A stretch of DNA of 47,690 nucleotides, taken from positions 1-47,690 of the forward strand of contig JAFDMD010000002.1 in the NCBI GenBank assembly GCA_019306185.1. Reading direction: 5' to 3'. Source of the DNA: Deltaproteobacteria bacterium (lineage in GTDB: Bacteria > Desulfobacterota > Desulfobacteria > Desulfobacterales > JAFDMD01). Below the pieces are notes generated by a model, which ran no database searches, was not told where the DNA came from, and saw nothing but the letters and a program-made list of their open reading frames with translations. The translations under genes and the position numbers were made by a program. This document shows positions 30,220 to 45,152 of this stretch, in pieces; position 1 is the first letter of the stretch, and each line of letters begins with the position of its first letter.

Positions 30220-31923
30220 AGGATTGATTTTATTTATTACGGATAATAACTTTTTGTTATCGGTTTTGTCTATGTTTGAATGCAGGCTTTTTAACGCCGC
30301 CGGTATGTAGCGTTTAAAGTTTGTTTTTCCTTTTAAGGTTAAAAACCCGAAAGCCCCGAGTATTTGCAGGTTTCTTGTTATTAAGCAGGCTTTGAAACAT
30401 TTTAGAAATTTTTCTTTGTTAAATTCGGCATAGTTTAAAAGTTGTTTTACCGTATAATTAAATAGTATTTTTTGTATGCCGCGGGAAAGATTAACGTAAG
30501 GGTCTATTAATAAAGACGCCAAATCGTATTCTATGGGTCCTATTTTTGCGGATTGAAAATCTATGAAATATATTTTGTTTTTATAGATCATAATGTTTGC
30601 AGACTGCATGTCTCTGTGCATTAATCCGAATAATGCGGAATTTGTCGCGTTATCCGCGAGGTTGTTAAACTCTTTGGCAAAATCCGAATATGTAAGTTGA
30701 AGTTTTAAATAACCGTTTAAAAAGGAATCGGTAAAATATCGGCATTCTTTATCGAGTATAAGGTTTTTATTGTAATAAGGCGTTTGAAAGCATAGCGTTG
30801 TATTGAAGTTTTCTTTTCCTTTTATACAAAAGGTTATAAGTAGATTTATTACTTTTTTATATAATGAAATTATTTTATTGATGTTGTTTTCTTTTACTAT
30901 GATATCTTTCAGACGGATATCTCCGAGGTCTTCGGAAAATACAAAGCCGGCGATTGTATCGTAAGCGGCTATTTCGGGAACGGGGATTTGTTTTTGATGA
31001 AGATATTTTCCTATTTTAACAAAGGAATTTGTTTGAGATGAATTTGTATTTATATTTATTGTATCTTCCGCCGCAATTATGCTTTTTTCGCCTTTTGCAG
31101 ATACTCTGCGCCATGTTCTGTCCGAGCCGTCTCCTTTTAATTTTTCAACCGTAATATTTTTTAAAGGGGTTTTAAAAACGGATTGCGTTAAGGTATTGAA
31201 AACCGCTTTTTTATAAGATTGCGGAGTTCCTATGTCTTGCCAGTAATTTTTTGTTATAAAAGCTTTTATGGGTTTTTGTAAGGTTATAAGCTTTTGAAAG
31301 GTTTCTATAAGCCCTATGGCTTTGTTACTCGGTATTGTTTTTATTATTTGCGGATTTATTACGCTTATTCCGGTATATGTAAAAAGCTTCCGGTTGTCCG
31401 CGTTTTTATTTTGCCCGTTTTTTTTGTTATGCAAGGGTTTTATCGGTTTGTTTTGCAGGTTGTTTGAACGGAAGTTTTTTATAAAATGGTTTTTATCTAT
31501 TGTTACTTTGTTGAACTGCGGACAGTCGCGCATAACAGCGGTAACTAAAAAGGGATGGGTTTTGTGGAAGTTGTAAACTTGTTTTATGTCTATGTCGGTT
31601 ATTATGTCTGCATTTATTGTTAAAAAGGGGGAGTCGTTTAAAAATTTTGCAGCGTTTTTTATTGCTCCGGCGGTGTCTAACGGTTGCGGTTCGTATAATA
31701 TGTTTATTTTTACCGGATAGCGTTTGGATAGTATGTAGCTTTTTATTTGTAGCGCAAGGTGATGGGTATTTATAATTAGTTCCGTAAAGCCTGCGTTTAT
31801 AAGTTTGTTTACGGTGATGTCTATAATCGGGGTATTTTGTATGGTAAAAAGCGGTTTTGGCAAGGCGTTTGTATGGGGACGAAGCCTTGTTCCGTAACCT
31901 GCGGCAAATATTAAGGCTTTCAT
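30211..31923 (-). CDS. Fused sugar nucleotidyltransferase and phosphotransferase (MurU-AmgK-like)
   Basis: A 570-residue two-domain protein. Residues 1-235 are a nucleotidyltransferase of the MurU/ManC group: AAGYGTRLRPHTNALPKPL, then INADIITDID. Residues about 265-570 are an APH-type kinase, opening GDGSDRTWRRVSAKG, with the catalytic loop HRDMQSANIM (HxDxxxxN) and the DFQSAKIGPIEYDLASLL metal-binding loop. In Pseudomonas AmgK phosphorylates MurNAc at C1 and MurU makes UDP-MurNAc, a peptidoglycan-recycling bypass, from separate genes. Here both activities could lie on one chain. The exact sugar is inferred. Confidence 0.82.
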   Translation of the reverse strand: MKALIFAAGYGTRLRPHTNALPKPLFTIQNTPIIDITVNKLINAGFTELIINTHHLALQIKSYILSKRYPVKINILYEPQPLDTAGAIKNAAKFLNDSPFLTINADIITDIDIKQVYNFHKTHPFLVTAVMRDCPQFNKVTIDKNHFIKNFRSNNLQNKPIKPLHNKKNGQNKNADNRKLFTYTGISVINPQIIKTIPSNKAIGLIETFQKLITLQKPIKAFITKNYWQDIGTPQSYKKAVFNTLTQSVFKTPLKNITVEKLKGDGSDRTWRRVSAKGEKSIIAAEDTININTNSSQTNSFVKIGKYLHQKQIPVPEIAAYDTIAGFVFSEDLGDIRLKDIIVKENNINKIISLYKKVINLLITFCIKGKENFNTTLCFQTPYYNKNLILDKECRYFTDSFLNGYLKLQLTYSDFAKEFNNLADNATNSALFGLMHRDMQSANIMIYKNKIYFIDFQSAKIGPIEYDLASLLIDPYVNLSRGIQKILFNYTVKQLLNYAEFNKEKFLKCFKACLITRNLQILGAFGFLTLKGKTNFKRYIPAALKSLHSNIDKTDNKKLLSVINKINPLA

Positions 31924-31968
31924 AGGTTTTTTCCCTTTTAACTCGAATAAGATTTATTTTTTTGGGAT

Positions 31969-32912
31969 TTAATCCGAAATGATTTGTTTATATTGTATAA
32001 AAACAGGTTGTAATAGTTTTTCCAAATCCTTAAAAATTTCCGAAGATTGATTGTCTCTTAAATTTTTTAGTATGTCTTTTTTAAATGCCTCTATATTGAA
32101 GTTTTTAATTTCTAATTTTTCCATTAATGTATTGCAAAGCTTGTTAAAAGCCTCTTTTCCTCTGAAATTTTGATTGGCGAATTCAAATAGATTATTATCT
32201 TTTAAGTTATTCCATTTAAAATACTTCGTAATATCATCAAAAAGCTGTTCCGGGCTGCATAATTGATCGATTTCGGCTTGTAAGCCTGCGGCGGTATTGC
32301 AAAACCAGTTTTTGATTTGTTCGAGGCTTTCCTTTACTAAGTTATTTGGAACGCCGATTTTAGGATATATTATTTTATACGTATTAGACAAATTAAACTT
32401 TAGGCATTCTCGAAATTCTTCATCTATAACTAATTTATAATAGTTTTTTAAAATATCTTCTATTGATATTTTATCCGCTTTTTTGTCTTTGTTTTTATAT
32501 GGCTTGTTTCCATTGGATTTATCAGGAAGCAGGTTTATTAAGTCTGCAATAAGTTTGGATTCTACAAGCAGATAATTTTCCCATTCATGCCCGCGCCAAT
32601 ATAATATATTAGGTTTTTTATTTTTGATAAGAGTTTTGTCGTTGTCCGCCTTTTTTCTATTGTTTTAAAGGGTCTGTAATCTCTGTCTGATATGGCTATT
32701 ATCGGTATTTTTTGATGCAGTTTGGAATGAAGGTATATTCTGCGGGCAAAGATATTAAATGACGAGGCGCTTCCCGTATCAAACAGATTAAAATTAACTT
32801 CAAAAGAATTTTTATCAATTATATTTTTGATAGCGGATTCAAAAAAAACCAATTCCGGACTATTCGGCTCTCCTTCAACCAGAATATACAGATTGTTTTT
32901 AGATACTTTCAT
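31969..32912 (-). pseudogene. TOPRIM (DUF4435-like) nuclease gene with a frameshift at an A-run, pair 2
   Basis: The minus strand starts at 32912 with NLYILVEGEPNSPELVFFES (TOPRIM glutamate E13) and IIAISDRDYRPFKTIEK (DxD at 76-78). At an A6 run near 32652 the frame must slip by -1. It then reads ADNDKTLIKNKKP, ILYWRGHEWENYLLVESK and on to the stop at 31969. The ENYLL segment is typical of DUF4435/PARIS AriB-like proteins. The joined product would be about 314 residues. In frame 0 the protein ends at 32562 after 116 residues. It overlaps the ATPase gene by 14 bp. It may be inactivated, a sequence error, or read through slippage. Confidence 0.7.
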
Positions 32913-33975
32913 CCAAATCTCCCAAATCTATAATTTCGTCGTCAAAAAAGAGCTGTTTTACAAACTGAGAATGGGTTGTAAAAACATATTGATTGTTTAA
33001 AGAATCGTTTCTTAATGTTTCTATAAGTTTTCTTTGCCACGCAGGATGAAGATGAAGCTCTATCTCGTCAATAAGAACTATTGAGTTTTCGGCTGTTTCG
33101 GCTATTAATCCTACTAATATTCTTAATATTTGATGTTCGCCGGAGCTCATTTGAGCCAGATCGTATTCAACCCCGTTTTTTCTGATAATAAGAGTATCTA
33201 TATCGGGTCCGGATTCGATTCCTATAAGTTCGGCGGGATAACAGATTTTATCGAATAATCTTTCAATCCTGCTCCAATAAGATTCTCCGTATTTTTCTTG
33301 ATTCCATGTTTGATTTCTTTGACGGTATATATTAAGCCAAGACAGCACATCGTCGTAAGGCAGATGCAATTCCTCTTTTTCGACGGAATAGCTTTTGGTA
33401 ATTCTAAAGGAGCGTCTTTGATCTAAATAGCAGACGCTTCCTATTTTTTCAAATATGCTTTTTCCTATAAAATTTTCCGCTACTCCTTTTCTTGCGTTTC
33501 CTCTTGCGCCTATTACCTTCGCGGCATTTCGGGGAGAGGTAAATGCTGAAAAAGGTTTTTTGTAGGTTTTATTAGGGTTTGGAAACTGCCATTTTATATT
33601 TGAAGGTATATCAAGAGGAGGTGTTTTATCTTTAAAAGAAAAAGGAGTATTCCATCGAAGCGCTTTATATACTTCATTGATAGCCTCCGCTTCTTTTAAA
33701 TCAATACCGGAAGAAAAATTAATTTCAGCGATATTTCCTCTTCCTTTTACTATTTGTTGAGCTGAAAATTCCAGTCCTTCGCGCAGTCTCGGATTATAAG
33801 GGTCTTCCAATGTGCGGACTACGATATGAATGGCGTCTAAAACAGAGGTTTTTCCGCTTCCGTTGGGTCCTACAATTAAGGTTACGGTTCTCGGCTTGGA
33901 AAAATTGTCTGTAAAATCGAAAGCGCCGGATTCTATCGCTCTAAAGTTTTTAATTGTAATAGAATGTAGTTTCAT
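32899..33975 (-). CDS. ABC/SMC-like AAA ATPase, pair 2 (PARIS AriA / OLD-like)
   Basis: A 358-residue ATPase. Walker A is GPNGSGKTS at residues 36-44, the signature-like QMSSGEHQILRILVGL lies near 272-287, Walker B is NSIVLIDEIELHLHP near 295-309, and TTHSQF follows near 334. The FRAIESGAFDF start is usual for RecF-type DNA-repair or defence ATPases. It overlaps the TOPRIM gene by 14 bp, so the two are coupled. This order and pairing match PARIS (AriA ATPase, AriB DUF4435 TOPRIM). It is not homologous in close detail to pair 1 at 3.2 kb, as far as the eye can tell. Confidence 0.85.
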   Translation of the reverse strand: MKLHSITIKNFRAIESGAFDFTDNFSKPRTVTLIVGPNGSGKTSVLDAIHIVVRTLEDPYNPRLREGLEFSAQQIVKGRGNIAEINFSSGIDLKEAEAINEVYKALRWNTPFSFKDKTPPLDIPSNIKWQFPNPNKTYKKPFSAFTSPRNAAKVIGARGNARKGVAENFIGKSIFEKIGSVCYLDQRRSFRITKSYSVEKEELHLPYDDVLSWLNIYRQRNQTWNQEKYGESYWSRIERLFDKICYPAELIGIESGPDIDTLIIRKNGVEYDLAQMSSGEHQILRILVGLIAETAENSIVLIDEIELHLHPAWQRKLIETLRNDSLNNQYVFTTHSQFVKQLFFDDEIIDLGDLDESI

Positions 33976-34025
33976 AATTATATTCTTTTTATGTAATTAT
34001 AGGTATAGGCGTTTTTATAAGAAAA

Positions 34026-36632
34026 TTATTTTGTAACAGCTTCTATAAATGTTGTTATTTTTTGTTGATGGATTAAGATTTTGTCCTTATCCGCATTTAT
34101 TTTGTTTATGCCGTGATAAGCAAAATAATCCAAAGCGTTTTTATAGTTGATAACGGAAAGGGCTTCGGGTAGTTTTATTTTTTTTGTTTTATATTGGTTA
34201 TTGCCGAAAGTCTGTATTTTTTTTAATAAAACTTTTGTCGAGTAGTTTTTATTATTATGATTTTTTAAAAAGAGTAGAACTATTAAGTAGGATTCAAAGA
34301 ATTTTTTTATAAAAGAAGCGTAATGTTTAAGCTTTGTTATTCCTGAAGGGGATACTCGGTATTCGTCTTTGTTTGTATTTGACGCGGTTATTATTTTTTC
34401 TTTTACAAAAGCCGCTATTGTTTTTTCTATAAAATATCTCGGCGCTTTTTTCTGATCGTAAGTAAATTCGTTTTTTAAGAATTCTTTTAAAACGAGATAG
34501 GTTTTTTCAAGATTTGCGGCAAAAAAGGTAAAGTCGTCGCATAGTAGTATGGCTGTCGCTGTATATGCGGCGGGTATAAAGAAGTATGTGCAGTTATTTC
34601 TGTAATAATCAAGAATTTGCCTTTTTTCTGTATTTACCGTATATTCCGATATGTTTTTGTCTGGCGGTTTTTCTATTAATTTTCTATTCTCGTAAGATGT
34701 TAAACTGTTTTTGATGCTATTTCGGTAGTCTTTTGTTAATGTATCTGCAAGGCTTGCGTTAAATAGGTTAAGATAATTGCAATAGCTTTGAATGTGGTCT
34801 GTTATTGTTTTGTAGGTTAAAACTTCTTGGGAATGGTTTAATATTGCGCTTGCAACAAGAGCCTGCGGAGTTATAACGGACGACTCGTCTATTGAATTTA
34901 AAATTTTATAGCTTATGGTTTTGCATAATGTGTCGCGTTGTTTTGTATTTGTATTTTTTATATTTGATCCGGATTCTCTTAAAAACTCGTTTAAGGAGAT
35001 AGGCTCCGGAAATTTCATGTAGATTTTTCCGTATTTTTTTTTTAAAATTTTTCTTGCGCCTATAATTTGTTTGATGGTTTCCGGCTTTTTTTCCGCGCCT
35101 TCCATTTCTTTTATATATTCTTTTTCTTCAATAACTCTGTCGTAGCCTATAGATACGGGGGCGAATATTAAGTCGTCGCAAGCCCCTTTTGCATAAGCGT
35201 TAAGAAGCATATTCATAAATCCGAGTTTCGGTTTTAATAATTTTCCGGTTCTGCTTCTTGTGCCTTCTATAAAAACCTCTATGTTGCCTCCTTCTTCAAG
35301 CAGGTTGTAAACATATTCTTCGAATACTTTTGAATATAGGGCGGCGCCTTTAAAGGTTCGTCTTATAAAAAACGCGCCTCCTCTTCGGAATAAAGCGCCA
35401 AAGGGCCAAAAGGACATATTTTTACCTGCGGCTATGTGCGGAAGATAGAGTCTGTTTAAATAGATTGTAAAGTATAATACCATATAATCTATATGACTTT
35501 TATGACACGGTATGAATATAATAGGACCTTTTTTAGACATCTCTTTAAGTTTTGCAATTTGCGCGGGATCGGCTTTGAATTCTTCGAACATTAAATTAAG
35601 AATAAATTTTAATATCGGCATTACAAGTCTTATTACGGCAAAATTATGCTTTGAAGCTATTTCGTCCAAATAAGCGCCGGCTTTTTTATATATTGAAGAT
35701 ACCGGCTTTTTGCCGGAGCCGGTTTTGTCTTTCATGTAATTCATTAAGCTTGCTTTTGTAAGGATGTTTTGTTTTATCTCTTCATAAGATTTTATTATGG
35801 GTCCCGTTACTCCTTGTCTGTGTCTGTTGATCTGTTTTATAAGGATTGTTCTTATGTTATGCGTAAGTTCTCGGGTTTGTTTATTTATGTTTTCCGGTTT
35901 GTTTAAAAACTCTTTAAGGTTGAAGGGCGCGGATATTTCCATAAAGATTTTTCCGGGGTTTTTAAATAAGGTTATTGTTCTTCTTATAATGCCCGGTTTT
36001 TCTTCGGAGCCGAACAGGGCGTCTATAAGTTTATAATGACTTTTATGGGGGTTTTTGCTAAAAAAGGTAAGATGCGGAACGATATATATGGTTTTGTCTG
36101 TCTGCCTTTGTATGTTTATCAGATATGTTACGGGGCATGTTTGTTCTTTGACAAATTTGTTATTAAACCATTGTTTTTCTATTAAAGGGAATAGCCCTGT
36201 GTTGTTTTTTAAAATAGATTCTTTTATATAACCGCTTTTATACGGGTTTTTAAAAGAGAGGTTTTTATAAAAATAATGGGACGCGGCTATAAAAGTTTTA
36301 AATATTTTTGACGCCGGCTGCCATAAAAATATTTTAAACCCGAAGGCAAGCGTCGGAACGGGAAGCTTTTCTTTTTTATATTTTGTATATAGAAAAAGGT
36401 ATTCAAAGAAGTTTTTATATTTTACGGTATATATAACTATGCTGTCTCGAGATAATCGCTTTAAAGAATTTGTTTCTTCTTTATTTGTTTTTATTCCTCT
36501 GTAAAAGGTATTTAATATATAGGAAGCAAAAGAACCTATATTTTCCGGCAGATAACATAAAAAGTAGTTATCGGGCTCGTTTAAAACTTTATCTATCCAA
36601 AGCCGGATTTTTTTTTTAAATTCCGAAAGCAT
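34026..36632 (-). CDS. plsB: Glycerol-3-phosphate 1-O-acyltransferase (PlsB type)
   Basis: An 868-residue membrane-associated acyltransferase that starts phospholipid synthesis. The acyltransferase blocks are in order: IFIPCHKSHIDYMVLYF (block I, HxxxxD), GALFRRGGAFFIRRTFKGA (block II), VFIEGTRSRTGKLLKPKLGF (block III) and FAPVSIGYDRVIE (block IV), spanning about residues 370-520. Large N- and C-terminal helical regions match PlsB. It uses acyl-CoA or acyl-ACP. The next gene on the strand, DUF6178, is 44 bp away in the upstream direction. Confidence 0.92.
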   Translation of the reverse strand: MLSEFKKKIRLWIDKVLNEPDNYFLCYLPENIGSFASYILNTFYRGIKTNKEETNSLKRLSRDSIVIYTVKYKNFFEYLFLYTKYKKEKLPVPTLAFGFKIFLWQPASKIFKTFIAASHYFYKNLSFKNPYKSGYIKESILKNNTGLFPLIEKQWFNNKFVKEQTCPVTYLINIQRQTDKTIYIVPHLTFFSKNPHKSHYKLIDALFGSEEKPGIIRRTITLFKNPGKIFMEISAPFNLKEFLNKPENINKQTRELTHNIRTILIKQINRHRQGVTGPIIKSYEEIKQNILTKASLMNYMKDKTGSGKKPVSSIYKKAGAYLDEIASKHNFAVIRLVMPILKFILNLMFEEFKADPAQIAKLKEMSKKGPIIFIPCHKSHIDYMVLYFTIYLNRLYLPHIAAGKNMSFWPFGALFRRGGAFFIRRTFKGAALYSKVFEEYVYNLLEEGGNIEVFIEGTRSRTGKLLKPKLGFMNMLLNAYAKGACDDLIFAPVSIGYDRVIEEKEYIKEMEGAEKKPETIKQIIGARKILKKKYGKIYMKFPEPISLNEFLRESGSNIKNTNTKQRDTLCKTISYKILNSIDESSVITPQALVASAILNHSQEVLTYKTITDHIQSYCNYLNLFNASLADTLTKDYRNSIKNSLTSYENRKLIEKPPDKNISEYTVNTEKRQILDYYRNNCTYFFIPAAYTATAILLCDDFTFFAANLEKTYLVLKEFLKNEFTYDQKKAPRYFIEKTIAAFVKEKIITASNTNKDEYRVSPSGITKLKHYASFIKKFFESYLIVLLFLKNHNNKNYSTKVLLKKIQTFGNNQYKTKKIKLPEALSVINYKNALDYFAYHGINKINADKDKILIHQQKITTFIEAVTK

Positions 36633-44501: not shown

Positions 44502-44568
44502 TTCTATATTTCAAAAAATAAGTTTTGCAAAGGGTAAATTTATTTTTTTGCATGGATTTTGTTTTATT
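44502..44568. repeat. 67-bp direct repeat, left copy
   Basis: TCTATATT opens it, TTTTGCAAAGGGTAAATTTA is the core, and GATTTTGTTTTATTA closes it. It matches 45153-45219 with only a few changes and no gaps, in the same orientation. It overlaps the stop of the DUF2442 gene. Confidence 0.92.
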
Positions 44569-44809
44569 ATACAGGCTCCGAGTAATCCCACAAAGTTTCC
44601 GGCGCAATATCAATACGCCCGGGCCAAACAACTGTTCCGTAAGCGACAAAAGCTTTTAAAAATAACGGCGAATCTTTAAGTTTTACAAACGGCTTTTTTT
44701 TTAAAAAAGGAGTCATATCAAATCGGCGTTTTTTTCCGTTTTCAAATTCCAATAATAATGTATTATTTTCGCAAGCTTTTACATTTATAACATCTATAAG
44801 TAATTCCAT
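44567..44809 (-). CDS. DUF2442 family protein
   Basis: An 80-residue protein, VINVKACENNTLLLEFENGKK followed by FDMTPFLKK and VVWPGRIDIAPETLWDYS. This is the DUF2442 pattern (a ligand-like small beta fold). DUF2442 and DUF4160 genes are often paired; a toxin-antitoxin function has been proposed but not shown. It lies 12 bp after the DUF4160 gene and its stop falls in the 67-bp repeat. Confidence 0.85.
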   Translation of the reverse strand: MELLIDVINVKACENNTLLLEFENGKKRRFDMTPFLKKKPFVKLKDSPLFLKAFVAYGTVVWPGRIDIAPETLWDYSEPV

Positions 44810-44821
44810 AAATAACCTTCT

Positions 44822-45091
44822 TTACCGTAAAGCTTCAATACGAAACGGCTCTTCTCCCGAAACAGCTAATTCCCAATTTGCAAGGAGTTCTTCTTTATGA
44901 ATATCAATCCATACCCGAACCATTCGCAGTTGTTTTGCAGGAAAATCGCCTGCAAGCAGCGCGCCGTCTTCAATTGAAACGGCAGCTTTTTTACCTTGAT
45001 AACGAACATGTATGTGAGGAAGATTATGACGTTTATTATCTTCATAAAAAATAGCGACTAATATACCATAAAACATTGAGATTGTCGGCAT
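44822..45091 (-). CDS. DUF4160 family protein
   Basis: An 89-residue protein with MPTISMFYGILVAIFYEDN, then HNLPHIHVRYQGKKAAVSIE and HKEELLANWELA, the typical DUF4160 sequence with its PHIH motif. The ATG at 45091 with AGAGG upstream is preferred. It heads the two-gene DUF4160-DUF2442 cassette, which is flanked by direct repeats. Confidence 0.88.
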   Translation of the reverse strand: MPTISMFYGILVAIFYEDNKRHNLPHIHVRYQGKKAAVSIEDGALLAGDFPAKQLRMVRVWIDIHKEELLANWELAVSGEEPFRIEALR

Positions 45092-45152
45092 CAATAAACC
45101 TCTTTAAGTATTGGTTCTATTGTAAAAATATTTTATTGCTCTAATAAGCCTC

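Follow-up and report, generated by a model that had tools for sequence, protein, structure and literature searches.

A divergent PARIS-like ATPase and TOPRIM pair with a probably inactivated effector gene in a Desulfobacterales genome

In PARIS, an ATPase keeps a nuclease sequestered and lets it go on sensing a phage anti-restriction protein, after which tRNA is cut and the infection is aborted (PMC11455837). In the 47,690-nucleotide stretch of DNA analysed here (the window), two overlapping genes on the minus strand resemble this arrangement, and the second of them changes reading frame at a run of A. The locus raises the question of which family the pair belongs to, and of whether the break reflects decay, a sequence error or slippage on the A-run, the three explanations offered in an initial annotation of this DNA. 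The best reading, which we consider fairly probable, is that the pair is PARIS-like and divergent, and that its effector was inactivated recently. The coordinates that the annotation had given were all found to be right, as were the 14-bp overlap and the presence of HEWENYLL in the second frame. The coding features are the following.

32899..33975, minus strand: AriA-like OLD/ABC ATPase, intact, 358 aa, recognized by Pfam, PADLOC and alignment
32562..32912, minus strand: TOPRIM zero frame, 116 aa, of which about 86 are family residues, followed by about 30 out-of-frame residues up to the stop
31969..32655, minus strand: -1 frame with the rest of the TOPRIM protein, 228 codons, containing the family elements HEWENYLL and FRGKE

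The ATPase carries a Walker A motif (GPNGSGKT), a signature motif (SSGE) and a Walker B motif (VLIDEIELHLHP), and was matched in Pfam by both AAA_15 (96.9 bits) and AAA_21 (91.8 bits), each past its cut-off. It passes the ATPase part of the published PARIS detection rule, which requires AAA_15 at 32 bits or more or AAA_21 at 27 bits or more (PMC9122126). Its better full-length relatives, 23-32% identical to it, were found at loci of the same order, on cyanobacterial plasmids and chromosomes, and in Chlorobiaceae and Chloroflexi. Throughout the nearest group a TOPRIM gene of about 275-300 aa lies directly 3' of the ATPase gene, bar decayed or orphaned cases, and beside somewhat more distant ATPases the partner is a Septu-like HNH protein. 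Septu and the retron PtuA-PtuB systems do share an ATPase of the same broad family, and PADLOC matched the window protein with both the PtuA and the AriA models and gave PtuA the top score. However, the partner of PtuA is an HNH nuclease, whereas in the window and in its nearest relatives the partner is a TOPRIM protein, and Septu was rejected on that ground.

The TOPRIM gene starts with an ATG at 32912, overlaps the ATPase gene by 14 bp (32899-32912, minus strand), and its zero frame ends after 116 codons. The catalytic motifs are found in this frame and align with those of the family, namely VEG, with EG at residues 13-14, and SDRD at residues 75-78, so that the TOPRIM catalytic acidic residues (the E of EG, and DxD) are present as they are in PARIS. 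An open -1 frame extends from about 32664 as far as its stop at 31969, and past the junction it includes GHEWENYLLVESK. No stop codon occurs in the 228 codons of this tail, where simulated sequences that keep its dinucleotide make-up had a mean of 17.7 and never reached 0 in 5000 trials; the tail is therefore taken to be real coding sequence. In the two remaining frames of the actual tail, 17 and 26 stops were counted.

Nine intact TOPRIM proteins, each the partner of a related ATPase, were combined into a profile (A3). When compared with it by hhalign, the read-through protein scored 84% over residues 1-117, a match that spans the break, as against 22% for the first frame alone, 5% for the second alone and 1.3% for the best shuffle. 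A similar order was given by hmmsearch, in which the joined protein reached 20.7 bits, the first frame by itself 10.7 and the best shuffle 5.5. Furthermore, residues conserved in the family fall in the -1 frame, namely the E and the Y within ENYL and the GK within F-x-GK. Given the homology across the break and the location of these elements, we conclude from the sequence that the zero and -1 frames are one broken gene. The initial annotation had made its reading depend on a match of the product after the run to the DUF4435/AriB partner family, and such a match was obtained, as part of the read-through protein.

The effector part of the PARIS detection rule asks for an adjacent DUF4435 gene, with PF14491 at 27 bits or more (PMC9122126). 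Neither frame nor the read-through protein was matched by PF14491, and among three relatives tested only the Nostocales one was, at 26.0 bits. No DUF4435 or AriB match for the window effector was found in Pfam, NCBIfam or PADLOC, and the effector is about 20% identical to its relatives. PARIS also calls for an intact effector, and the window frame is broken after about 86 family residues. The published rule would miss the window pair, and since the effector fails it and lacks a DUF4435/AriB match, the label PARIS-like is used here instead of PARIS. The earlier description of a DUF4435-like TOPRIM gene thus stands as regards its EG and SDRD motifs, but the protein itself falls below Pfam detection of DUF4435.

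The predicted structure of an intact TOPRIM partner from a related locus, L003 (pLDDT 78, pTM 0.82), had as its top Foldseek match in the PDB the AriB protein of the PARIS complex (8ux9_A, E 3.4e-4, prob 1.00), the global superposition of the two being poor, with a TM-score of 0.36. The tail of the window protein, predicted alone, gave a pLDDT of 40.6, too low for a usable model. The TOPRIM-partner profile likewise finds AriB by sequence (E 0.0033), a match that is weak when taken alone, several unrelated chains, mostly ubiquitins, scoring better. Like PARIS, which consists of AriA and the DUF4435/TOPRIM tRNase AriB, the window pair has a gene for a sensor ATPase followed by one for a TOPRIM nuclease, and it shares the catalytic EG and DRD motifs as well as ENYL; a relative of its effector has AriB as the top structural match. 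It differs from PARIS in its distant ATPase of 358 aa, compared to 464 aa in the solved AriA chains, and in an effector that lies below DUF4435 detection and is encoded by a frame-shifted gene. The PARIS-like ATPase and TOPRIM pair that had been proposed agrees with the layout, with the motifs, with the relatives and with the AriB-type fold predicted for the intact relative, and the view that the two genes form a divergent PARIS-like branch, composed of an OLD/AriA-type ATPase and a TOPRIM nuclease, is supported.

A pair with the same two-gene order was found on Nostocales plasmids (NZ_CP047244, AP018182), the ATPase of which is among the closest full-length matches (27.6% over 96%). The second gene there is annotated as DUF4435 in one record and only as 'hypothetical' in another. 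The Nostocales pair is nested inside a DISARM operon, whereas the window pair stands alone between housekeeping genes. On two Nostocales conjugative plasmids (L036 and L037), the pair lies between a DNA methyltransferase gene and drmA of that operon.

The closest relative of the window ATPase was found in a genome of the same phylum (G436, 34% identity), and in a maximum-likelihood tree of 34 ATPases the two were sisters with 99/98 support, a pairing of two long branches that the tree program warns may be falsely joined. No TOPRIM partner was found beside the G436 ATPase (locus L147, G436:C589), and because of this the window pair may differ from PARIS in detail. At that locus the ATPase gene is followed by one for a 316-aa protein and then by one for a large P-loop protein (GESGAGKTS) that, judged by eye, resembles a STAND NTPase; L147 is possibly a different defence layout.

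The two frames of the TOPRIM gene could be joined at any point from about 32664 to about 32600, an interval that holds two A6 runs.

32651..32656, minus strand: A6 run, best-supported site of the -1 shift and best codon-usage breakpoint
32614..32619, minus strand: second A6 run, forming the heptamer A AAA AAC in phase, a less probable place for the shift

Each candidate breakpoint was given a score derived from codon usage in 28 intact genes of the window. A break at 32614-32619 scored about 4.8 nats worse than one at 32651-32656, because the zero frame, which reads ATA GAA AAA AGG CGG at the first run, would use rare codons such as AGG and CGG once past it. Codon usage therefore places the break best at 32651-32656, in agreement with the -1 shift that had been assigned to the A-run near 32652.

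Since neither the catalytic motifs nor the downstream frame has yet been spoiled, the shift is most likely a recent loss of one base from this run. Such a loss would inactivate the effector, orphan the ATPase and switch off a costly suicide system. It was also suggested that slippage on the A-run might be at work, and a programmed or tolerated shift, making both a short TOPRIM core and a full-length nuclease, would keep a toxic effector scarce. The perfect preservation of the -1 frame speaks for this idea, as does the presence of a heptamer in canonical phase (A AAA AAC, 32614-32619) in the overlap of the frames. Nevertheless, a programmed -1 frameshift calls for an in-phase slippery heptamer together with a stimulatory element, and this combination was found at neither A6 run. 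Read in the zero frame, the run at 32651-32656 is divided as A AAA AGG and does not have the form X XXY YYZ. At 32614-32619, where the phase is right, no stable structure was found just downstream. Compared with shuffles, the downstream RNA showed no gain in folding (z-scores 0.13 and 1.24). In-phase A AAA AAN is also common in this DNA, occurring 119 times in 10,270 intact window codons (about 1 in 86), which leads to an expectation of 0.39 in the overlap, and in the same 28 intact genes 118 A6 runs and 85 longer ones leave the frames unaffected. The short product, moreover, would comprise about 86 family residues without the ENYL element and the helical C-terminal half. Finally, all 17 intact relatives have a single frame (17/17), and split frames were seen only in clear pseudogenes. 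The proposal of two products from one A-run is thus not borne out, and we regard programmed or tolerated slippage as quite improbable. A related view, in which the A-run would on rare occasions switch a suicidal defence nuclease on or off, or alter its dosage, with slippage during replication (phase variation) or during expression giving the full effector in a few cells, appears to us very doubtful.

A comparison of the A-run with that of a near relative carrying the same cassette was sought, and none such was found. Viral contigs searched with the ATPase and with the tail, genome contigs searched with the ATPase alone and plasmids searched with the tail gave no close relative. In 389 genomes of the same order, the joined effector found only the window itself and two weak matches that were taken as chance.

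A sequencing or assembly error would leave the real gene as one open frame and the cassette intact. The assembly is a draft of metagenome-like character, in 170 contigs and with an estimated contamination of 5.87%, and the gene has a single defect, located in a homopolymer, apart from which neither the catalytic motifs nor any of the downstream frame is damaged; these points favour an error. On the other hand, six A is short for a homopolymer error, no other examined gene of the window is visibly broken, and 38 runs of 8-10 A or T occur in intact genes, the list of which was picked for intact genes and is a weak control. We therefore hold an error to be possible but rather unlikely. Decay by recent loss of a base is favoured among the explanations that had been put forward, in view of the clean motifs and frame.

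Loss of the effector was also seen in relatives. Besides the 17 loci in which ATPase and TOPRIM genes are both intact, four related loci other than the window have an intact ATPase with a damaged or lost effector. In Calothrix sp. PCC 7103 (L046, 4020-4924) the TOPRIM gene is a pseudogene in three pieces, with a frame shift and an internal stop, and its motifs are altered from EG to SG and from DRD to DSD, while the ATPase is intact. At a second locus (L042, G037:C1, 2926-3423) the TOPRIM catalytic core has been removed by an internal deletion, which leaves the start and the C-terminal half in one frame beside an intact ATPase. In the other two, L114 (G143 C96) and L045 (Symploca), only apparent TOPRIM scraps lie 3' of the intact ATPase. 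The converse, a broken ATPase beside a close TOPRIM gene that is intact, was not seen when the 389 genomes of the same order were searched with the TOPRIM profile. The numbers behind this pattern are small, and a search led by the ATPase is biased towards seeing loss of the effector. In PARIS, deleting one gene or the other does no harm but abolishes defence, and AriB is toxic once activated (PMC9122126, PMC12409363); loss of a gene by mutation is therefore tolerated, and recurrent loss of the effector is consistent with the known biology of PARIS.

It might be argued that the ATPase is retained for another job and that the effector is dispensable, as in G436, where the sister ATPase (99/98 support) lacks a TOPRIM partner; the orphaned ATPases of L045 and L114 point the same way. 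Yet the G436 pairing is the one flagged as unsafe by the tree program, and the frame of the window effector, unlike older remnants, is nearly perfect, which argues that the effector was under selection until recently. Another role for the ATPase seems to us most unlikely.

The pair occupies a short segment between two intact genes.

31933..34025, no strand assigned: inserted segment of about 2.1 kb holding only the two genes, delimited by the short junction in a same-genus genome (L044)
34026..36632, minus strand: upstream neighbour, an intact gene for a PlsB-like glycerol-3-phosphate acyltransferase, 86% identical in DNA to its counterpart in the same-genus genome
30211..31923, minus strand: downstream neighbour, an intact gene for a MurU/AmgK-like fusion of a nucleotidyltransferase with an APH kinase, 81% identical in DNA to its counterpart in the same-genus genome

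In the same-genus genome G002 (locus L044) the two flanking genes are adjacent, with a short spacer and no pair between them. Most simply, the cassette would be an insertion at plsB / murU-amgK that damaged neither neighbour. As the site is empty in the congener, the insertion most likely took place after the window genome and the congener split; loss from the congener would give the same picture, and the comparison is one of two genomes only. No terminal repeats and no target duplication were found at the edges of the insert, and the only long inverted pair, at 31882-31900 and 33879-33897 (79%), was dismissed as chance, since its arms lie inside two genes. Predicted promoters were no commoner than in shuffles. 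The similarity of the flanking genes to those of the same-genus genome also shows that this is a contig of the genus and no contaminant. The window also encodes DsrC and a siroheme decarboxylase-like protein, from which the host is a probable sulfate reducer.

Two further observations were made in the course of this work. In another genome of the genus (G001, 93% complete) no PlsB-like match was found, and the match in G002 had 82% identity. Elsewhere in the window, genes for a DUF4160 protein (44822-45094, minus strand) and for an adjoining DUF2442-like protein, named by eye (44567-44809, minus strand), are small and resemble a toxin-antitoxin-like pair.

By analogy to PARIS, the window ATPase would hold the nuclease inactive until a phage anti-restriction protein is sensed, and the freed nuclease would cut host tRNA and stop growth. 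In the window genome the effector is, we infer, off. Our verdict is that this locus has an ordinary explanation, that of a disabled effector or, less likely, of a slip in the sequence. The pair adds a very divergent PARIS-like branch, one that standard detection by the DUF4435 cut-off and PADLOC misses, and the clean empty site in the congener would date the arrival of the cassette to after the split. The repeated finding of a broken TOPRIM gene next to an intact ATPase suggests that, in suicide systems of this kind, loss may tend to fall on the effector.
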